Source of the DNA: a bacterium
Lineage (GTDB): Bacteria; Pseudomonadota; Alphaproteobacteria; SP197
NCBI GenBank assembly: GCA_028821455.1
Contig: JAPPGE010000005.1
Span: forward strand, 1 to 64,000
Direction of reading: 5' to 3'
DNA: 64,000 nt
The translations under genes and the position numbers were made by a program. Shown piece after piece: positions 3,001-50,562 of this stretch (position 1 is the stretch's first letter; the number at the start of each line of letters is the position of its first letter). The notes under the pieces were generated by a model. It saw only the letters and a list, made by a program, of their open reading frames with translations, ran no database searches and was not told the origin of the DNA.

Positions 3001-4810
3001 GCAGACGAGCGTTCTCGTGCTCGCTGGCCCGGGCTCCGGCAAGACGCGTGTCCTGGTGCACCGTATCGCATATCTGATCCGGGTCCGCCGGCAGGATCCG
3101 CAGGGCATCCTCGCCCTCGTCTACAATCGCCACGCAGCGACCGAGATACGGCATCGGCTCTTCGATCTTCTCGGCGACGATGCCCGTGGCGTGACGGTCT
3201 CCACCTGTCACGGCCTGGCGATGCGCCTGGTCGGGGCCAGCTTCGCTGGGCAGTCCGGCGACATCTCGCAAGGAGAGTTCGACAGGATACTTCGGCAAGC
3301 GGTTTCGCTGCTGCGCGGTGACGGCCTTTCGCGCGACGAGGCCGAGGCGCAGCGCGATACGATGATCGAGGGTTATCGTTGGATTCTGGTTGACGAGTAT
3401 CAGGACATCGGACCAGACGAGTACGAACTGATCGCCGCTATCGCCGGGCGATCGGCCGAGGACGAGGACAGCCGGCTCAGCCTCTTTGCCGTCGGCGATG
3501 ACGACCAGAACATCTATGCCTTCAAGGGCGCGTCAGTCGCATTCATCAGGCGTTTCGAGGAAGACTACGCGGCGCGTCCGGTCCACCTCATCGAGAACTA
3601 CCGTTCGACCGCCAACATCGTCGACGCCGCAAACATGCTCATCGCGCGGGCCACGGATCGCATGAAGGCCGGTCATGACATCGTCGTGAACCAGACTCGG
3701 CGGAAGGATCGTCCCGGGGGTGACCTCGAAGGACTCGACCCCCTTGGCCACGGTCGGGTGCAAATTCTGCGCGCGCCCGCCAATGACGAAGCCGTCCAGG
3801 CGGTCCTGGCGGTGAACGAACTTCAGCGCCTGTCCCAGCAGATTCCCGACTGGCGCTGGGAGAACGCGGCGATAATCGCCCGCAACTGGCGCCAGCTGGG
3901 ACCGGTCCGGAGCTTCTGCGAAGCGCATGACATCCCCGTCCAGACCGCATCCGAAGATCCGCCCAACGTGTGGCGCCTGCGTGAGACCCAGAGCCTTGTA
4001 GACTGGCTCAGGGGACACTCGAATTCTGTGGTCCGCGCCGCCGACCTGCCAAGATGGATCGATCGACAACCCTCTGGTCCATGGTGGTCCGTGCTGCGAG
4101 AGGGTCTCGTTGACCTGTTCCATGAGCTCGGTGACCGCGAGATCGACTGCAGGGATGTCATCGAGTGGCTCGCCGAGTGGAGCCGCGGTGTCCGGAAGCG
4201 CCAGACAGGTCTGTTGCTCCTGTCGGCACACCGGGCGAAAGGCCTCGAGTTCGACGATGTGGTCATTCTGGACGGCGGCTGGGACCGGCCTTCGAACGGC
4301 GAAGACAGCGACGCCGAACGACGGCTCTACTACGTCGCGATGACGCGCGCCCGGCGCAATCTGGCGGTTGTTTCGATGGGAAAGCGTCATCCCTTCATCG
4401 GCCACCTGGACGGATCGGCAGTGGTCCATCGCGCCCCGCATGTGAGCGGCGGCGATGTGGCAAAATGCAGGAAAACCTACAGGACACTCGACCTGTCGGA
4501 GGTCGACCTCGACTTCGCGGGACGGTTGGCCGACGGTCATCCGGCACTTCGGGCTCTCGACACACTTGCTGCAGGCGATCCGATAAGCCTGAGACGAGAC
4601 GGTGACCGGCTGCTGATCGTCGACCGGCATGACATTGTCGTTGGTCGCCTCGCCTGGAGGTTCGAACCACCAAGAGACGCCACTTTTGTCGAAGGCACCG
4701 TCTCTGCGATCATGGCGCGCTATCGCTCGGACTCCGCGAAAGACTTTCTGTCACGACTCCGCCGGGACCGGTGGAGCGTCGTCCTTCCTGAACTTGTCTA
4801 CACAACCTGA
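2..4810 (+). CDS. RecQ-UvrD dual helicase fusion protein, 5' end outside window
   Basis: Two ATP-dependent DNA helicase engines lie in one polypeptide of at least 1,602 residues. The first is a RecQ-type SF2 helicase: Walker A PTGTGKS at nt 653-673, DEAH box at 962-973, and the RecQ motif QEAGRAGRDG at 1529-1558. The second is a UvrD/Rep-type SF1 helicase: Walker A AGPGSGKT at 3023-3046, DEYQD at 3392-3406, QNIYAFKGA near 3510, and RLYYVAMTRAR at 4322-4354. The region between (about 1.6-2.9 kb) may hold RecQ-C/winged-helix parts, and a cysteine cluster (CTDPSCEWC) lies just before the RecQ core. The GTG at 236 is not the real start: the frame is open and protein-like back to base 2, so the 5' end is outside. 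The role is probably recombination or repair; a defence role is possible but unproven. Confidence 0.9.
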   Translation, partial: SESSKPKRHQLFKSDSPGLQAGNASDPGLDAGLVFTVLRNQLAELRTLLGSDPALLTALHWLVTSKENPQGFDAIFRSVRDAPRPATPEAHQAIRHVLDGRACTRQAKQVILDAERTGWSLAYALSWISVAGENSVMPPWVRHQFPETGVLVRRLRDTSCTDPSCEWCRTWADPISLLGKWFGFGEFRPKPTGEDGRSLQETIVAVALAKSPVLGILPTGTGKSLCYQLPALATYHRTGALTVVISPLVALMADQVASLSRQGVSSCVTINGLLSLPERHEALDRVRLGDASMLLISPEQLRNSSVRSVLEQREVGYWVIDEAHCVSKWGHDFRPDYRYIARFILEYSGDSEPAPLMCLTATAKPGVIDDICEHFQERLGVELNRIDGGVHRDNLSFEIVKTDKTSKLGDIISVLENALPPEGTSGAIVYCATRSATERVADFLKEKGYAASHYHAGLKPESKLETQQQFANGTLRVIAATNAFGMGIDKSDIRLVVHADIPSSLENYVQEAGRAGRDGEPARCVLLYNNDDIEKQFTLSARSRLDKQEIAAILKSLRRLGRRSKREGEVVATPGEIVKEDVDGDFGRDRCTEDTRVKIAVSWLEEAALLKRDENFVRVFPSSLKIRTMEEAHQRIEASNAVPGYQAKLLRLVRSLLDSSPDRGISTDELCGEAGFTPARLRRALNFLEGLGIASNDTAITVFVHLGVEDSSGKRLAEVAGLEGKLLDQFREFAPDLEPNEVWTLNLRLASQQLHDAGHAKIRPDIVEKLVRGIARDGRQDAEGVGSFQVRKIDRQHLSLRLQRSWDKLTLTSRLRRRAADVLLVSLADTAPARARGKDVQVSTTLGALISALGSDLELSQEINDPSSLLDHALLWLHEQGVVTLGRGLTIFRPAITVHLNSGNRKFTETDFQPLHLHYDEQTLQTHIIAAYAERGLYAMSDALLLMEDYFTHDRQAFVEKWLPRSAAALRRQATPESWRAIVDSLGNPRQAQIVADNREQTSVLVLAGPGSGKTRVLVHRIAYLIRVRRQDPQGILALVYNRHAATEIRHRLFDLLGDDARGVTVSTCHGLAMRLVGASFAGQSGDISQGEFDRILRQAVSLLRGDGLSRDEAEAQRDTMIEGYRWILVDEYQDIGPDEYELIAAIAGRSAEDEDSRLSLFAVGDDDQNIYAFKGASVAFIRRFEEDYAARPVHLIENYRSTANIVDAANMLIARATDRMKAGHDIVVNQTRRKDRPGGDLEGLDPLGHGRVQILRAPANDEAVQAVLAVNELQRLSQQIPDWRWENAAIIARNWRQLGPVRSFCEAHDIPVQTASEDPPNVWRLRETQSLVDWLRGHSNSVVRAADLPRWIDRQPSGPWWSVLREGLVDLFHELGDREIDCRDVIEWLAEWSRGVRKRQTGLLLLSAHRAKGLEFDDVVILDGGWDRPSNGEDSDAERRLYYVAMTRARRNLAVVSMGKRHPFIGHLDGSAVVHRAPHVSGGDVAKCRKTYRTLDLSEVDLDFAGRLADGHPALRALDTLAAGDPISLRRDGDRLLIVDRHDIVVGRLAWRFEPPRDATFVEGTVSAIMARYRSDSAKDFLSRLRRDRWSVVLPELVYTT

Positions 4811-4986
4811 TGCGCCATTCAGCCGGGGGGTGATGTCACCGGATCCCGTGATGCCGTCCCATTGGAGAGGTCGATCGCCGCAAAGCCGTCGGGCAGGGAC
4901 TCGCGGTGCTGGGTGATGGTCTGGTTCAGCGCGTTGCGTCCATGACGTCCGTCAGGCAGGCTGAAGCCGTGTGCGGCAGGGCCGGT

Positions 4987-6144
4987 TCAGGCGAGGAAGC
5001 GTTGCAGCCTGTCTGCGGCGGCGTCGAGAATGTCGTCCTTCTTGCAGAAGCAGAAGCGGATGAGGGTGTCGATGCTGCCCTTGCGCATGAAGGCGCTGAC
5101 CGGAACGGCGGTGACACCGGCCTTTTCGGTGATGAGACGGCAGAAGGCCTCGTCACCACCGGCGATGCCGAATGGCGTGATGTCGGCGTTGATGAAATAG
5201 GTCCCCTGGCAGGACAGGACCGGGAATCCGGCCTTCGCAAGGCCGCCAGCCAGGCGGTCGCGCTTGCTCTGGAGGGCGGCCGCGAGATCGGTGTAATAGG
5301 CCGTCTCCTTGCCCAGCCCGTAGGCCACGGCCTTCTGCAGGTTGGGAGCCGTGGTGAAGGTGACGAACTGATGAGCCTTCATGACGGCGGCCATGAGCTC
5401 GGCCGGCCCCTCGATCCACCCCACTTTCCATCCCGTCAGCGAAAAAATCTTGCCGGCAGACGAGATCCGCAGAGTTCTCTCGCGCATGCCGTCAAGTGAC
5501 GCGATCGGCCGGTGCTCGAGACCGTCGAAGAGAAGATGTTCATAGACCTCGTCACACAGGCAGATGACATCGTGCTCGATGCACAGCCGCCGGATGAGGT
5601 CCAGTTCGGCCATGGTCAGTACGCGGGCGGCGGGATTCATCGGCGAGTTGAGAAGGATCATGCGTGTTCGCGGCGTGAACGCCGCCTCGAGGGCCACGGG
5701 ATCGAGTTCCCACCCCGGTGGCTCGAGGGTGACATACCGGGGGATCGCGCCGGCGCGCTCGATCATGGGCGGATAGGAATCGTAGAGAGGTTCAAGCAGC
5801 ACCACCTCGTCGCCCGGATTGAGCAGGGCAAGGAAGCAGTCGGCCAGGGCCTCCGTCGCCCCCGATGTGACGACGATCTCGCTCTGCCAGTCATAGTCGA
5901 GACCGTAGAAGCGCCGCGCATGGGCGGCGATTGCCTGGCGGAGTTCGGCGAGACCGGTCATGGGCGGGTACTGGTTGGGGCCTTCAACGAGAGCATCGGC
6001 TGCAACCTGGCGAATGTCCCGGGGGCCGTCCTCGTCGGGAAACCCCTGGCCAAGGTTGATGGATCCATGTTCCATCGCCAGGCGCGACATGACCTCGAAC
6101 ACCGTGGTCCCGAGGTTTGCCATGATGGTGTTGGCTGGTCTCAT
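4987..6144 (-). CDS. PLP-dependent aminotransferase, class I/II
   Basis: A fold-type I aminotransferase of 385 residues, resembling methionine or kynurenine aminotransferases that handle hydrophobic and sulfur amino acids. Visible landmarks are the DEVY aspartate (D198) that pairs with the PLP ring nitrogen, the Schiff-base lysine in SSAGKIFSLTGWKVG (K232), and SPMNP (N170) in place of the commoner NPHNPTG. The ATG at 6144 is preceded by GGAGG five bases upstream. A small inverted repeat, GGTCC-AAAT-GGACC at 6157-6170, lies just above the RBS. The gene stands alone, divergent from glnB. The substrate cannot be told from sequence. Confidence 0.9.
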   Translation of the reverse strand: MRPANTIMANLGTTVFEVMSRLAMEHGSINLGQGFPDEDGPRDIRQVAADALVEGPNQYPPMTGLAELRQAIAAHARRFYGLDYDWQSEIVVTSGATEALADCFLALLNPGDEVVLLEPLYDSYPPMIERAGAIPRYVTLEPPGWELDPVALEAAFTPRTRMILLNSPMNPAARVLTMAELDLIRRLCIEHDVICLCDEVYEHLLFDGLEHRPIASLDGMRERTLRISSAGKIFSLTGWKVGWIEGPAELMAAVMKAHQFVTFTTAPNLQKAVAYGLGKETAYYTDLAAALQSKRDRLAGGLAKAGFPVLSCQGTYFINADITPFGIAGGDEAFCRLITEKAGVTAVPVSAFMRKGSIDTLIRFCFCKKDDILDAAADRLQRFLA

Positions 6145-6191
6145 GTCGCCTCCGCCGGTCCAAATGGACCATTTCCCCGATTTCCCTGTGA

Positions 6192-6686
<495 letters not shown>

Positions 6687-6730
6687 AACCACGCCCGACT
6701 CTCCAACAGACACCCGGGAAGGACCCTGAC

Positions 6731-8143
6731 ATGTCAGATGCTGAAAGTGTTCTCAAGCGTATCAAGGATGACGACATCCCCTATGTCGACCTCCGGTTCA
6801 CCGACCCAAGGGGCAAGTGGCAGCACCTTACGCTGTCCAGACGCATGGTCGACGAGGACATGTTCACCGACGGTGTCATGTTCGACGGCTCCTCCATCGC
6901 CGGCTGGAAGGCCATCAACGAATCAGACATGACCCTCATTCCGGATCCGGGCACCATGGTTCTGGATCCATTCGAATCGCAGCCCACACTCATCCTGAAC
7001 TGTGACATTCACGAACCGTCGACAGGACAGGACTACGAGCGCGACCCGCGCTCGCTGGCCAGGCGCGCGGAAGCCTATCTGCAGTACACCGGCATCGGCG
7101 ACACGGCCTTCTTCGGTCCCGAACTCGAGTTCTTCGTCTTCGACAGCGTGCGCTTTTCCACCGAATCCCACTCCATGGGCTACGAAATCGATTCGGAAGA
7201 AGGGCCGTACAACGACAACACCGAGTACGAAGGCACGGGCAATCTCGCCCACCGGCCACGCCAGAAGGGCGGCTACTTCCCCGTTCCGCCGGTCGATTCG
7301 CTGAGCGACATGCGTTCCGAGATGTTGTCGACCATGGCCGAAATGGGCCTTCCCATCGACAAGCATCACCACGAAGTGGCACCGGCACAGCACGAACTCG
7401 GCATGACATTCGATTCGTTGCTGACCTGCGCCGACAGCGTGCAGGCCTACAAGTACGTCGTCCACCGGGTCGCCCACAGCTACGGCAAGACGGCGACCTT
7501 CATGCCCAAGCCGGTGATGTACGACAACGGCTCCGGCATGCATGTGCACCAGTCAATCTGGATGGACGGAGAACCTCTCTTCGCCGGAAACCGGTATGCG
7601 GACCTCTCCGACATGGCGCTCTACTACATCGGTGGCATCATCCGTCATGCCAAGGCGCTCAACGCGTTCACCAATGCCTCGACCAACAGCTACAAGAGGC
7701 TGGTCCCGGGTTACGAGGCGCCGGTGCTGCTCGCCTACAGTTCGCGGAACCGTTCCGCGTCCTGCCGCATTCCCTATGCCACATCACCGAAGGCCAAGCG
7801 TGTCGAGATCCGTTTCCCCGATCCGACCGCCAATCCCTATTTTGCCTTCTCGGCCATGCTGATGGCCGGCCTCGACGGCATCGAGAACCGTATCCATCCA
7901 GGCGACGCGATGGACAAGAATCTCTACGATCTGCCGCCCGAGGAACTCAAGGACGTGCCGACGGTGGCGGGCAGCCTGCGCGAGGCGTTGAATGCCCTCG
8001 AGGAGGACAACGACTTCCTCAAGAAGGGTGAAGTCTTCAACGACGACCTCATCAACGGCTATCTCGAGCTCAAGTGGGAAGAGGTGATGGCCTTCGAAAC
8101 CACCACCCATCCCATCGAGTTCGACATGTATTACAGTATCTAG
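6731..8143 (+). CDS. glnA: Glutamine synthetase type I
   Basis: Type I glutamine synthetase, 470 residues, making glutamine from glutamate, ammonia and ATP as a dodecamer. The N-terminal latch and beta-grasp ([13 protein letters not shown]), the ATP-binding [16 protein letters not shown] segment, and the adenylylation-site tyrosine in [10 protein letters not shown] (Tyr399) are all present. The enzyme is therefore likely to be controlled by GlnE, with PII encoded directly upstream. The start has an AGGA-type RBS (gggaagga) ten bases upstream. Confidence 0.97.
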
Positions 8144-43462: not shown

Positions 43463-44200
43463 ATGGCTCAGCACAGAGAACAGCTTGCCAAGCGCGCTGC
43501 CGCGCGTGGCAAGTATTCCCCCCTTTATCGCCGTCTGGCCGGCACCGAGGGACCGAACTGGAGAGTGTCCTTTTCCGAGATCGAGACCATTCTGGGATTC
43601 ACGCTGCCGGACTCGGCGCGCCTTCACAGGCCCTGGTGGGCAAACCAGTCTCGCGGAGGTGGTCACAGCCACTCTCTGGCCTGGCAGGCTGCGGGCTGGA
43701 GGACCAGTGAGGTCGATCTGGATGCAGAGACACTGATCTTTCAACGCATCCAGACCGAAACTGACCATCCCGTGGCTGGAGGCAGGAAGAACATCGCCCG
43801 TGAAGCCGCCGCGAACGGCAAGTACGCGCTTCTCTACAAAAGCCTCAGTACAAGGCCGGGCTCCCGTTGGCGGACTACGTTTTCCGAGATCGAGGCCGTA
43901 CTTGGCTTCAAGCTGCCACCTTCGGCGCGGCACCACCGGCCGTGGTGGGCAAACCAGAGGCACGGCGGCGGTCTCGGCCATTCCCTGGCCTGGCAGGCTG
44001 CCGGCTGGCAGACCGCGCAGGTCGATCTTGCAGCCGAAACACTCGTGTTCGAACGCGAAGAGGGCGTCGGACCGCCCACCGGACAGGCGAAGTCGACTCG
44101 TCCTTTCGTCCTTGCCCGCGACTTCCCGGCAATGGACATGGGACCTTGGCCCGAGGACTTTGCGGTGAGGCGGGAAGAGATCTACGACGACAGAGAATGA
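43463..44200 (+). CDS. Double DUF7662-like protein with acidic tail, putative antitoxin
   Basis: 245 residues: two copies of a ~79-residue domain (residues ~17-95 and ~119-197), each reading GKYxxLYxxL, WRxxFSEIExxLGFxLPxSA and HRPWWANQ, then GG..HSLAWQAAGW and VDLxAETLxFxR. This resembles the uncharacterised DUF7662 family (recognised from memory). The C-terminal tail (ARDFPAMDMGPWPEDFAVRR, then EEIYDDRE) resembles toxin-binding tails of AbrB- or VapB-type antitoxins. RBS GAGGA lies eight bases before the ATG. The gene precedes a PIN-domain RNase gene by 47 bases under a promoter with an operator palindrome, so an antitoxin role is the best inference. No classical DNA-binding fold is seen. 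Confidence 0.8.
   Translation: MAQHREQLAKRAAARGKYSPLYRRLAGTEGPNWRVSFSEIETILGFTLPDSARLHRPWWANQSRGGGHSHSLAWQAAGWRTSEVDLDAETLIFQRIQTETDHPVAGGRKNIAREAAANGKYALLYKSLSTRPGSRWRTTFSEIEAVLGFKLPPSARHHRPWWANQRHGGGLGHSLAWQAAGWQTAQVDLAAETLVFEREEGVGPPTGQAKSTRPFVLARDFPAMDMGPWPEDFAVRREEIYDDRE
43511..44053 (+). repeat. Intragenic tandem duplication of a DUF7662-like domain
   Basis: Two diverged copies, 43511-43747 and 43817-44053, offset by 306 bases (102 codons), encode the same domain twice. Blocks such as FSEIE, LGF.LP.SAR, HRPWWANQ, SLAWQAAGW and AETL are kept at identical offsets, showing an in-frame duplication with selection on both copies. Confidence 0.85.
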
Positions 44201-44247: not shown

Positions 44248-44685
44248 ATGTTCATTGACACGAACGTTTTCGTATCGGCCCGCAGTGCACGGGCCCCCCA
44301 CAATTCGCTCGCTCGAGCGGCGCTCTCCCGGGCACAGCGGACGGGCGAACCCTTGCGCATCAATCGTCAAGTGCTTCGCGAGTACTTGTCGACCATGACT
44401 CGACCGCAAACCTGGCAGGTTCCGCTCTCCTTGGCCGACACCTTGAACGACCTCGCGTGGCTGAGTGCAACATTCGAGATCCTCGAAGACGGCGCCCATG
44501 TGACAGACATGCTCGTTGCTCTGTGCCAGGAGGTCCTGCTCGCCGGCAAACAACTGCACGACGCCAATATCGTGGCCACCATGCTGGCTCACGGCGAGCG
44601 GCGGCTTCTGACATTCAACGCATCCGACTTTCGACGCTACGGCGAACGCATCGATCTGATCGTACCGGATGTTCAGATATCCTGA
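44248..44685 (+). CDS. PIN-domain ribonuclease, VapC-like putative toxin
   Basis: 145 residues, a PIN fold with the metal-binding acid set: Asp4 in MFIDTNVFVSA, Glu45 in VLREYL, Asp105 in LHDANIVATML, and the Asn124/Asp127 segment TFNASDFRRY. VapC toxins of this type cleave tRNA or rRNA as free enzymes and are held inactive by the cognate antitoxin. The gene follows the DUF7662-repeat gene by 47 bases in the same orientation, with gagcgga before the ATG. The target is unknown. Confidence 0.85.
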   Translation: MFIDTNVFVSARSARAPHNSLARAALSRAQRTGEPLRINRQVLREYLSTMTRPQTWQVPLSLADTLNDLAWLSATFEILEDGAHVTDMLVALCQEVLLAGKQLHDANIVATMLAHGERRLLTFNASDFRRYGERIDLIVPDVQIS

Positions 44686-46252: not shown

Positions 46253-48190
46253 TCAGCCGCCAACCACGCCGCCGTCTTCGCGGGTGACGACCACGACCGA
46301 GGGTCGCGGTGGCAGGCCTGCATCAAAATCCGGCCAGCGAGTCGTCAAGCTGTCATAGGTCTCCGAATCCTCGCCCGGGTGCTGAACGGCGATGAACAGC
46401 GTCCTGCCGTCGGGCGTGAAACTCGGTCCGGTGCATTCGGCGCCAGCCGGACAGGCATAGAACGCCTGTGCCTTGCCCCGAGCCGGTCCGTCCAGGTCCA
46501 CGGCGAAAAGGCCGTCTGCCAGGTCAAGGCTGTTCATGCCGTCGGTCCCGATCCACAACCGTCCCTGTGGGTCGAAGGCGATGTTGTCCGGCGTGGAGAA
46601 CCACCCGTTGGCCGAGGTCTCGGGATGGAAGCTGGCCCCCTGTTCCGGCTTTGACGGATCGCCACACAGAACCAGGATGTCCCATCCAAAGCGGTCGGCG
46701 GCATGGTCGACAGCCGGTCCGTCACCCGGCGGAATCAGCTCCACGAGGTGGCCCTGGCGGTTTTCCTCGCGTGTGTTGACGACATTCAGGTTGTCCGCAC
46801 GGCGTTTCTTGTTCTTGGTCAACACGACATAGACCCGACCGGTTACCGGATTAACTTCGAAGTCTTCGGGTCGGTCCATCGTGGTGGCGCCGAGCGCATC
46901 AGCGGCAAGTCGGGCGTTGATGACCACTTCGCCCTGGTCGGCGAAACCGTTTTCGGGCGTCAGCGGTCCTTCTCCGTGAACCAGGGGCAGCCAGGACATC
47001 GTACCGTCCTCGTCGAATTTCGCGACCGAAAGCACGCCATGATCGAGCAGATCCTTGTTGGCGGCCCGATCGTTCATGTCGATCTTGTCTCGCGAAACGA
47101 AACGGAAGAGGTATTCAAAACGGGCGTCATCACCCGAATAGACAACCAGACGTCCGTCAGAACTGACCGCGGTCTGCGCCCCTTCGTGGCCAAACCTGCC
47201 CAGAGCGCTGCGCTTGACGGGAACGGACTGGGGATCATAGGGATCGAACTCGACCACCCAGTGGAAGCGGTTCGTCTCGTTTGGTTCTTGTTCAAAGTTG
47301 AAGCGAGGGTGATAGCGAGCCAGGCTCAACCCATCGTGACCATCGTAACCGTAACGAGTCAGACTCTCTTCCTGATCCGTTTTAGCGGGGTCTCCGCCAA
47401 AGTCGTAGTAGGCCCATTCCTCGCAGGTGAGAATTGTTCCCCAGGGCGTGACGCCTCCGCTGCAGTTGGTATGGGTGCCGACGGGCCTCGTGCCGGAGGG
47501 ATCCTCCGAGGTCTTGACAAGATCGTGCCCGGCAGCGGGACCGGACATGGCCATTTCGGTGAAGAGATCGAGGCGGCGATTGTACTCGGAATCGGCCACC
47601 ACTCGCCACTCGCCGTCAATCTTCTCGATTTCCACAACCGAATGACCAGTCGCCGCCATCAGCGTGTCAACCTGCTCCGCGGTGAGATCGGGACTCGACG
47701 CCCAGGCCTCACCGACCCATCCGGGAATCGAGATATGGGGATCGGGATACTCGTTGTTGACACACAGCAGACCGTGCTCGGAATTGTCGGAACCAAAGGG
47801 CAGTGGCAGGAAGGCCGTGAAATCGCAGTTGTACCCGAATTGTCCGGACTGCGTTTGCCTGCTCTGGTTGTCGGGATCGAAATCCGATGCCCCGGCGATG
47901 ATGGGATCACCCCAGCGCAGCAGGATTTCCGCACGGTATCCGCTGGCGACATGATGTGTCTCATCGTAGATCCGTTCGATCTCTTCGAAGTCGAACGCAC
48001 TGGCGGCTCCGGCGGACGCCGGCGGACTGAAAACGGAGCCCGCCGTTCCCATGGCGACAGCCGCCGATGTTCCGGCAGCACCGTGCAGGATGGCACGCCG
48101 CGAGAGGCGCGCTTTCAGGATATTGGCAAAGTCGGGCTGAGACGTGAGTTCACTCCGACCCTGTCGGTTACTCTTGGAACCGTTCGTCAT
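46253..48190 (-). CDS. PhoX-type (DUF839) alkaline phosphatase, Tat-exported
   Basis: 645 residues. A twin-arginine signal (LSRRAILHGAAGTSAAVAMG) near residue 30 directs folded export, consistent with the Fe/Ca cofactor of PhoX enzymes. Family blocks: GYNCDFTAFLPLP, GLLCVNNEYPDPH and HTNCSGGVTPWGTILTCEEW (~residues 237-256), HEGAQ, and the C-terminal IAVQHPGED segment. It probably releases phosphate from organic phosphoesters in the periplasm. The ATG at 48190 has a GGGAGG RBS; no clear Pho box was identified. Confidence 0.9.
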   Translation of the reverse strand: MTNGSKSNRQGRSELTSQPDFANILKARLSRRAILHGAAGTSAAVAMGTAGSVFSPPASAGAASAFDFEEIERIYDETHHVASGYRAEILLRWGDPIIAGASDFDPDNQSRQTQSGQFGYNCDFTAFLPLPFGSDNSEHGLLCVNNEYPDPHISIPGWVGEAWASSPDLTAEQVDTLMAATGHSVVEIEKIDGEWRVVADSEYNRRLDLFTEMAMSGPAAGHDLVKTSEDPSGTRPVGTHTNCSGGVTPWGTILTCEEWAYYDFGGDPAKTDQEESLTRYGYDGHDGLSLARYHPRFNFEQEPNETNRFHWVVEFDPYDPQSVPVKRSALGRFGHEGAQTAVSSDGRLVVYSGDDARFEYLFRFVSRDKIDMNDRAANKDLLDHGVLSVAKFDEDGTMSWLPLVHGEGPLTPENGFADQGEVVINARLAADALGATTMDRPEDFEVNPVTGRVYVVLTKNKKRRADNLNVVNTREENRQGHLVELIPPGDGPAVDHAADRFGWDILVLCGDPSKPEQGASFHPETSANGWFSTPDNIAFDPQGRLWIGTDGMNSLDLADGLFAVDLDGPARGKAQAFYACPAGAECTGPSFTPDGRTLFIAVQHPGEDSETYDSLTTRWPDFDAGLPPRPSVVVVTREDGGVVGG

Positions 48191-48671
48191 GATGAATCCT
48201 CCCAATTGGTAAAAGATGGTCTTCATTCTCCTCGTCTGCGCGTCTTGTCATGTTGTTGGCGCCGACGTCGAAATCGAGGATACGGCGGAACGAGTGCGCC
48301 TGACCATCGCCGAACGTGGAAGTTTGCGTGAGGTCCACCTGCCTGTCAAAGGCGGCCGGATATTGAGGCCTGCGCGTTGATGCGTCGACCTCGATGCAAT
48401 CCTCTGCGTCAGCGCTGTGCTCGATGCGCAGGCTCATGTCGTCTCGCCCGCGGACCCGCGCAACGCAAGATCCCGCGTGCGGCCGGTCGTGCGCCCTGGC
48501 ACATACCAATGGTCGTGTACGGAATGTTCTGCAACCGTGCCAGCGGTCCCTGGCACACAACGGGTTTGCGCCTCGCTTGATCGCATGCCCTGAGATTTCG
48601 CTCGACGCTGGTCGAGTGCAACGTTTGCGTTGAATTTCGGCTCAGCGCTTCGTGAGTTGATCTCCAACCTT

Positions 48672-48690
48672 TGCGTATCTAACATACGCA
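48672..48690. promoter_or_regulatory. Palindromic operator upstream of the hipA-like gene
   Basis: TGCGTAT-CTAAC-ATACGCA is a perfect inverted repeat (7-bp arms, 5-base spacer) lying just upstream of the -35 box. A second, smaller repeat, GTTAA-C-TTAAC, lies at 48735-48745 at the predicted transcription start. These are natural sites for autoregulation by the HTH-like domain of the encoded protein. Confidence 0.55.
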
Positions 48691-48704
48691 TAAGTAGCAA
48701 AACG

Positions 48705-48733
48705 TTGACGTCTAGCGGCAGATTCCCTACTTT
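48705..48733 (+). promoter_or_regulatory. Sigma-70 promoter of the hipA-like gene
   Basis: TTGACG at 48705-48710 and TACTTT at 48728-48733, spacing 17. The predicted start of transcription is about 20 bases before the ATG at 48763, leaving a very short leader. Confidence 0.6.
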
Positions 48734-48762
48734 TGTTAACTTAACGTGCGAAAAGGTTGGAA

Positions 48763-50562
48763 ATGTTGCATCTCGTTGGTGAGACCATTGACAAGCACCG
48801 CGTTCAACATGGCGTGGAGACCGGTAGGCTCGTCCAGATCATGCGGGGCATTTATGTTGCAGCGGAGGACGACGCCGACGCCATGCTGTTCGATCACGCG
48901 CTCCGGATCGCCGCCTACCTCTACCCGAACACCTATCTTTGCGGGTCCAGCGCCGAGCGTCTCGCACCAACGCCGGACAGGCGCCTCTTTCTGAGCGGGA
49001 GACGCAATGCACGCACACGACTGCGCGAGCTGGAAATCTTGCAGACGCGCGCGCCTGATGCTCCCGAGACCGAGACCGTTCAGATCACCGACCCGATGGG
49101 TGACTTGAGGGTCCGGCGCTCGACACTGCGATTTCGTTACCTGGAATCCTTCCGTCGGCGCAGTGAAGCCGGCGCTGCCATGCCACTCGACGTGCAGGTG
49201 GACATTGCCGCGCGTCTGGTTGAGGCCGCTGGCGGCCAGCAGGAAGCGATCATCGCGTGCTGGCGATTGGGCGAAGCCAATGGATGGCGAACGGAGGCGG
49301 CGCGTGCGGAACAACTCATTGCCACGCCACTTCGAGAAGCACCGCCACCGCGGGCAACGCTCCATGTGGGATGGCATGGCGAAAAGACCGGCTCCCTGTC
49401 TCATGACGGATCGGCTTGGCAGTGGGAACCTGTCGCCACCGAAGGCGCAACGCCGGTTCGAACCGGCCCGCCGGGCCGTTTGCCGCCCTTCATCGAGAGT
49501 CTGCTGCCCGAAGGCTGGCTTGAGCGCGTGTTGAGGCCGAAGTCGGAGCAGGAACGAATATCCGGAAAGCGCTATATGTCGAACATCGTCGTTTCCGGGG
49601 ACGAGAATGACCTTCAGGCTCTTCCGGCGGACGTGCTGGAAGGACGGCTCGAGGAGTTTGCGAATGAGGGTGCATTCGTCGGCGGCTACGCCGGTCCAGC
49701 ACCTTCGTTCGACGAAACGCTGGAAGACCGCATGGCCGGATTGTATGCGTCGGCAACGATGCCGCGCTTGTCGGGTGTTCAGGTCAAGGCGCCGATGAAC
49801 CTCTCGCATGACGGCATGCTGCGACCGGCTCGGGATCAGCGCGCCTTCACGCATATCCTGAAACCGTCGCCGGGCGCCGGCTTCGAAGAGCTTCCCCTGG
49901 TTGAAGCGGCATGTCTGGCGGCAGCTCAGGCTTGCGGATTCGAGACCGCCGCTCACGCGATCGTCACGATGCCGGGCGATTTGCCCGACGCCCTGCTGGT
50001 CGAGCGATTCGATATCCGGCAAGGCCGCAACGATCGTCGCAAGATTGCAATGGAAGATATGGCGTCCGTTCGCGGGGTCGCGCCCTCGGAAAAGTACGAA
50101 GGTTCCATCGAGCAAGTCGCACGGGCGCTGCGCGGTGTCTCCAGCGACGCACAAGCAGACATCGCTGTGCTGCTGGGTCGGGCCGTGTTCGCCTGGCTCA
50201 TTGCCGATGGCGACTTTCACCTGAAGAACATGGCTGTCCTGAGGGTTGCGGCGGAAAGTGGACAGAATTTCTCGTCTGTGCGGTTCGCACCGACCTACGA
50301 TGCCGTGACGACCCGGGCCTTCCCGGGGCTTGAACAGGACGATCTGGCGCTTTCGCTGGCAGGCAAGAGAAATCGCCTGTTGTCCGGGGACTTCATTCGG
50401 GCGGGCGCTACGATGGGCATCGATGCGCACCAGGTCCGCGACAGCATCGAGTCTCTGTGTGCCTGTCTGAGTGCCCATCTCGATGGCCTTGAACCCGCTT
50501 GCGGACGCGTGGGTCGGGCGCTGGGGATCTGGCGGCAGAGAATCGAAAGCGTTCGCGACTGA
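48763..50562 (+). CDS. HipA-type serine/threonine kinase fused to an AbiEi-like N-terminal domain
   Basis: 599 residues. Residues ~1-190 resemble AbiEi-type antitoxin/transcription-regulator proteins (LVQIMRGIYVAAE, then a YLYPNTYLCGSSA core). From ~198 the HipA N-subdomain starts (ATLHVGWHGEKTGSLS). The kinase core has the ATP lysine in HILKP (~366), the EEL region, catalytic DGDFHLKN (~482-489) and the metal-binding FAPTYDAVTT (~510). HipA toxins phosphorylate targets such as aminoacyl-tRNA synthetases. Here antitoxin-like and toxin parts are in one chain and no hipB gene is adjacent. The ATG at 48763 with AAGG six bases upstream is preferred to TTG 48757. Confidence 0.85.
   Translation: MLHLVGETIDKHRVQHGVETGRLVQIMRGIYVAAEDDADAMLFDHALRIAAYLYPNTYLCGSSAERLAPTPDRRLFLSGRRNARTRLRELEILQTRAPDAPETETVQITDPMGDLRVRRSTLRFRYLESFRRRSEAGAAMPLDVQVDIAARLVEAAGGQQEAIIACWRLGEANGWRTEAARAEQLIATPLREAPPPRATLHVGWHGEKTGSLSHDGSAWQWEPVATEGATPVRTGPPGRLPPFIESLLPEGWLERVLRPKSEQERISGKRYMSNIVVSGDENDLQALPADVLEGRLEEFANEGAFVGGYAGPAPSFDETLEDRMAGLYASATMPRLSGVQVKAPMNLSHDGMLRPARDQRAFTHILKPSPGAGFEELPLVEAACLAAAQACGFETAAHAIVTMPGDLPDALLVERFDIRQGRNDRRKIAMEDMASVRGVAPSEKYEGSIEQVARALRGVSSDAQADIAVLLGRAVFAWLIADGDFHLKNMAVLRVAAESGQNFSSVRFAPTYDAVTTRAFPGLEQDDLALSLAGKRNRLLSGDFIRAGATMGIDAHQVRDSIESLCACLSAHLDGLEPACGRVGRALGIWRQRIESVRD

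Follow-up and report, generated by a model that had tools for sequence, protein, structure and literature searches.

One gene encoding an AbiEi-like regulator, a HipS-like domain and a HipA/HipT-type kinase: a candidate single-polypeptide Hip module

A gene in the window, by which we mean the whole 64,000-nt stretch of DNA that was analyzed, encodes an AbiEi-like regulator domain, a HipS-like domain and a HipA/HipT-type kinase in one chain (Table 1), and we consider it somewhat probable that the product is a single-polypeptide Hip module that unites an autorepressor, a plug acting in cis and a HipT-like kinase. The regulator-HipS-kinase order is kept in 19 full-length relatives and, as read from the sequence matches, is the gene order of hipBST within a single chain. 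The gene is under purifying selection, with dN/dS of approximately 0.1–0.3 in each of the three parts when compared with close orthologues. The first-pass annotation, which had proposed an AbiEi-like domain joined to a HipA kinase as a self-inhibited toxin, overlooked two features, the double operator and a HipS-like domain in the middle of the protein. Self-inhibition is still plausible but is better placed in the middle domain: judging from the sequence, the AbiEi-like part more likely serves as the repressor and the HipS-like domain as the plug.

In the proposed module, the AbiEi-like N-domain would bind two palindromes in its own promoter and repress the gene, and the HipS-like domain would lay E250 and W252 against the Gly-rich loop of the kinase, as HipS does with Glu63 and Trp65, so that the kinase would be kept off in cis. 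Candidate triggers for plug release are DNA occupancy, a ligand, proteolysis and autophosphorylation at S337; the freed HipT-like kinase would then phosphorylate a target in the cell, which by analogy may be an aminoacyl-tRNA synthetase, and growth would stop. In type II systems the toxin is usually restrained by an antitoxin made separately. Where the plug is part of the toxin's own chain, antitoxin loss could not free the toxin, which would therefore have to be switched by a signal or a structural change; this makes the fusion a compact test of Hip kinase activation.

Table 1. Features of the fusion gene and its upstream region (positions in the window; aa, residues of the encoded protein)
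Feature	Position	Strand	Basis or remark
AbiEi-like regulator, HipS-like domain and HipA/HipT-type kinase, one gene	48763..50562	+	599 aa; possible TTG start at 48757
Putative operator site 1, ACCTTTGCGTAT-ctaac-ATACGCATAAGT	48667..48695		dyad centre 48681 (-82)
Likely -35 box, TTGACG	48705..48710	+	by eye; 17 nt before TACTTT
Putative operator site 2	48725..48761		centre ~-20; covers -10 and likely transcription start
Likely -10 box, TACTTT	48728..48733	+	by eye; inside left arm of site 2
AbiEi-like N-domain, aa 1-190	48763..49332	+	PADLOC AbiEi; hhalign against AbiEi set; solo 217-aa relatives
HipS-like / HipA N-subdomain-1-like domain, ~aa 197-300	49351..49662	+	Couple_hipA; hhalign
Predicted kinase plug, P249-E250-G251-W252	49507..49518	+	alignment; E. 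coli HipS P62-E63-G64-W65
HipA/HipT kinase core, ~aa 330-575	49750..50487	+	HipA_C; HipT(Lp) E = 2e-16
Gly-rich loop, L336-S337-G-V-Q-V-K342	49768..49788	+	S337 = HipT Ser59; R335 = HipT Ser57/HipA Ser150
Catalytic loop, D482-G-D484-F-H-L-K-N489	50206..50229	+	alignment; D484 = HipA D309, N489 = HipA N314
Metal-binding D513, TYD motif	50299..50301	+	alignment with HipT/HipA

The ORF opens with ATG; the only other in-frame start is the TTG, and an in-frame stop codon (TAA) lies upstream at 48742. No hipB-like HTH gene adjoins it, as had been noted at first pass, and no partner gene is common to the 12 annotated full-length plasmid relatives, the neighbors of which vary from plasmid to plasmid. 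An AbiEii toxin gene was likewise found adjoining neither the window gene nor the annotated plasmid relatives, one of which (L035) has a separate abiE operon. Pfam scans detected no HIRAN domain in the fusion proteins, and the window protein had no match in NCBIfam.

The kinase was described at first pass as a complete HipA kinase, and this description held: Pfam HipA_C covers aa 336–569 (E = 4.7e-39; 134.7 bits against a cut-off of 30.5), and the active-site residues, including the ATP lysine K367 (HILK), occupy the same alignment columns as their HipT and HipA counterparts. Among PDB sequences, HipT is the closest to the fusion kinase. In the Gly-rich loop, for which the reference residues (HipT Ser57 and Ser59, HipA Ser150) were taken from PMC10627512, S337 and G338 are invariant among the 19 members and R335 is present in more than 90% of them. 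A member on a Sinorhizobium plasmid (L042:4995-6830) has Glu at the position of the catalytic Asp484 and is possibly, as its sequence suggests, a natural dead kinase. The 19 fusions group as a single clade (support 99/98) on the HipA/HipT side of a tree of 53 kinases; the HipH clade (100/99) is separate and far from them (stem branch 3.2), and membership of HipH was rejected on this basis.

The middle domain matches Couple_hipA in 13 of the 19 members (best Pfam E = 4.5e-4), with the window protein below the Pfam cut-off, and hhalign gave 61% for it against HipS; against HipA N-termini its score (18.0, versus 17.0 for shuffles) was near noise. The window sequence PPFIESLLPEGWLERVL aligns with HPYFASLAPEGWLRQRY, the E. 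coli HipS counterpart (database chain 7ab3_B) that contains Glu63 and Trp65. The P-E-G-W motif occurs in 18 of the 19 members; all 19 have E250 and G251, and W252 is kept in 18, whereas Trp occupies this position in none of the 16 HipA references with a recognizable motif. Trp65 of HipS wedges under the Gly-rich loop of HipT, and the W65A substitution abolishes neutralization (PMC10627512). A Trp at the plug position is, however, not proof of inhibition, since Legionella HipS, which has Ile there, still neutralizes. The Pfam match behind the HipS-like assignment stays below threshold, and the assignment leans mostly on this one motif.

The N-domain comprises a recognition-helix/wing region and an AbiEi-type C-terminal part. 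The PADLOC AbiEi model matched aa 7–65 of the window protein (E = 3.3e-5), and at least 9 of the 19 relatives were matched by an AbiEi model. In a profile–profile comparison with eight AbiEi-type proteins (hhalign), the N-domain aligned over 144 colinear columns at 83% with a score of 41.7, versus 19 or less for 21 shuffled or reversed controls. The alignment begins at AbiEi position 37, with only about 20 residues preceding the wing; helices H1–H2 are absent, and the domain does not have the three-helix N-terminal winged HTH of AbiEi. The AlphaFold2 model of the full-length protein, built from 11 close relatives, was unusable (pLDDT 40.7), and that of the N-domain alone was poor (pLDDT 55.6). 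With the latter, Foldseek returned nothing at E < 0.001, and the VIA list was led by helical bundles, with AbiEi (6y8q) tenth at Z 3.2 among unrelated entries. A search of the N-domain profile against PDB sequences gave chance-level matches only, with no AbiEi chain. The AbiEi resemblance claimed at first pass thus stands as weak but consistent in PADLOC and in the profile–profile comparison, without H1–H2.

Most relatives carry two upstream dyads of one consensus, approximately ACTTTCnCGTAT-n5-ATACGnGAAAGT, centered near -82/-20, -85/-22 or -73/-18, with 54–55 or 62–64 bp between the centers. The two arms covary by subgroup (GTAT/ATAC versus GCAT/ATGC). Of 30 loci, 23 reach at least 9 of 13 pairs at the site near -20 and 13 do so at the upstream site, and the sites of relatives L022 and L035 are the strongest; the mean two-site score was 18.6, versus 15.6 (sd 1.2) in 268 control stretches. 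Site 1 of the window is the sole match with two or fewer mismatches in the 4.36-Mb genome; the window's site 2 is degenerate, but in most relatives this site is strong. A promoter scan of the upstream region gave no sigma-70 site, and the boxes in Table 1 were named by eye; a TTGAC-type box lies at the same place, between both dyads, in most close relatives. AbiEi and Rv2827c, its relative in Mycobacterium tuberculosis, autorepress by binding inverted repeats that span their own promoters (PMC7319586). Because two palindromes share a consensus and one of them covers the -10 box, the fusion protein is probably an autorepressor and, by analogy, probably represses its own gene as AbiEi does.

This AbiEi-like operator layout also speaks against a merely superficial AbiEi similarity, in which the N-domain would be a small DNA-binding or sensing domain of a different kind. 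The missing H1–H2, the low rank of the AbiEi structure against a poor model and the profile search of PDB sequences point to a superficial similarity; nevertheless, several members matched the same AbiEi models, and the colinear alignment extends across the wing and the C-terminal part with controls far below it, so that we regard a superficial similarity as somewhat unlikely.

Carriage of the gene is scattered across marine and soil Alphaproteobacteria and the plasmids that they harbor. A genome scan found 11 relatives at 76–82% identity in alphaproteobacterial MAGs, one of which is named as a sponge bin, and 94 plasmid records matched, 72 of them over at least 80% of the query length, with the best at about 48–51% identity; the plasmid relatives at about 48–50% are from rhizobia and roseobacters. 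In drawn samples, approximately 1–1.5% of alphaproteobacterial genomes carry the gene, and full N-domain matches in the genome samples were always part of an ORF of about 600–623 aa. One IMG/VR prophage contig (L043) has a full-length copy (5393-7228), located about 500 bp past a Fic/Doc-like gene (4467-4874) with a small upstream ORF. Solo 217-aa N-domain relatives (about 24% identity, without the kinase) are encoded after a replicative helicase gene on Xanthomonas/Stenotrophomonas plasmids (L029:4977-5630 and L030:4977-5630).

Broken copies are frequent (L012, L019/L020, L028, L032, L099 and L116), which fits a costly mobile gene. Three of them (L032, L099 and L116) retain the N-terminus and the operator and were considered as functional mini-repressors; this was rejected, and they are likelier relics, since L032 has lost internal sequence and L099 is decayed. 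The phage contig L116 (1930-2110) has an operator palindrome and the first ~47 codons of the gene, which continue in frame as a small ORF of unrelated sequence.

Two further readings turn on this distribution. The gene could encode a kinase/transcription regulator of normal signaling, the N-domain of which targets the kinase to DNA and the expression of which tunes its activity, as may hold for HipH/YjjJ. The one-gene layout like that of HipH, the autoregulatory operator and the absence of a partner antitoxin agree with such a role, which we nonetheless find improbable: the operator is unique in the genome, so that no other target is seen, the patchy plasmid and prophage carriage with frequent decay better fits mobile cargo, and HipH itself inhibits growth when induced (PMC8262856). 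Still less probable is a HipA-type toxin with its antitoxin gene at a different place, for instance another hipA locus of the genome, and with the N-domain acting only as a regulator. Three more HipA_C genes are present in the genome and other plasmids carry solo N-domain relatives, but the gene moves singly, with no conserved neighbor in any relative, and the protein has the HipS motif within its own chain.

DNA similarity blocks shared with same-genus genomes extend from about -14 to the end of the gene. In two other same-genus genomes, the gene is situated past the dapB end in the opposite orientation. In the window, same-genus DNA similarity breaks right at the dapB end (51163), and a same-genus relative (L015:3158-5870) has part of the dapB 3' end a second time, 88–90% identical, adjoining the fusion gene; together, the break and the partial copy suggest that the dapB end is an insertion hotspot. 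Elsewhere in the window, a PIN-domain protein, probably a VapC-like toxin by its domain match (44248-44685, +; Pfam PIN, E = 1.2e-8), follows a protein with two DUF7662 copies (43463-44200, +; E = 2.6e-26), and a PhoX-type alkaline phosphatase (46253-48226, -; E = 1e-154) was not found in the matching interval of L015.

The first-pass annotation had also raised a possible anti-phage role, to be checked by looking for conserved fusions in defense islands. No defense island was found in the window, and the contexts of the relatives are varied (plasmid, chromosomal and prophage). Abortive infection triggered by a phage is compatible with the single-polypeptide module, as its purpose, and TA modules, AbiE among them, can have defensive roles. 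Some relatives do lie near cas9 (L021), the abiE operon (L035) or TA genes (L033 and L040), or in the prophage (L043); however, the remaining relatives have unrelated neighbors and the gene occurred in none of the phage records searched, and we judge this purpose unlikely.

Set against known systems, the fusion resembles hipBST (E. coli O127 and Legionella; Gerdes clade III) in having regulator, HipS and kinase in this order and the E-G-W plug of E. coli, but hipB, hipS and hipT are three separate genes there and one ORF here, an AbiEi-like domain replaces the Xre-type HipB, and the position of HipT Ser57 is Arg. With HipH/YjjJ (Gerdes clade X) it shares a one-gene Hip kinase and an N-terminal DNA-binding region, whereas the kinase of HipH belongs to a distant clade, its N-domain is an HTH region of about 100 aa that is not AbiEi-like, and Phe occupies the plug position. 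Like hipBA, the fusion has a kinase core and N-subdomain-1; unlike hipBA, it is without hipB and has an extra 190-aa N-domain and the plug Trp. HipL (Gerdes clade XI) also combines kinase, HipS-like and DNA-binding domains in one gene but, by its published description, is set apart by the order kinase-HipS-HIRAN and the HIRAN domain (PMC8262856). The AbiEi-like N-domain and the dyads over the promoter recall the type IV AbiE system (AbiEi/AbiEii; MenA/MenT), although the fusion has no AbiEii nucleotidyltransferase, is joined to a Hip kinase and has a truncated winged helix.

The classification of Gerdes et al. (2021) comprises ten Hip organizations, none of which is AbiEi-HipS-kinase in one gene, and its text mentions no AbiE (PMC8262856); our literature search, which covered papers open without subscription, found none describing the fusion. 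The fusion adds a kinase clade beyond those in the text of that classification (PMC8262856). We tentatively suggest, as a possibility just short of even, an eleventh Hip gene organization: a TA system in one chain in which a type IV AbiEi-derived autorepressor replaces HipB, HipS would act as a plug in cis, and activation would occur by a conformational switch rather than by antitoxin decay. Such a protein would join two TA classes, with AbiEi from type IV and HipS/HipT from type II, and would do alone the job that is split over two or three genes in related TA systems.
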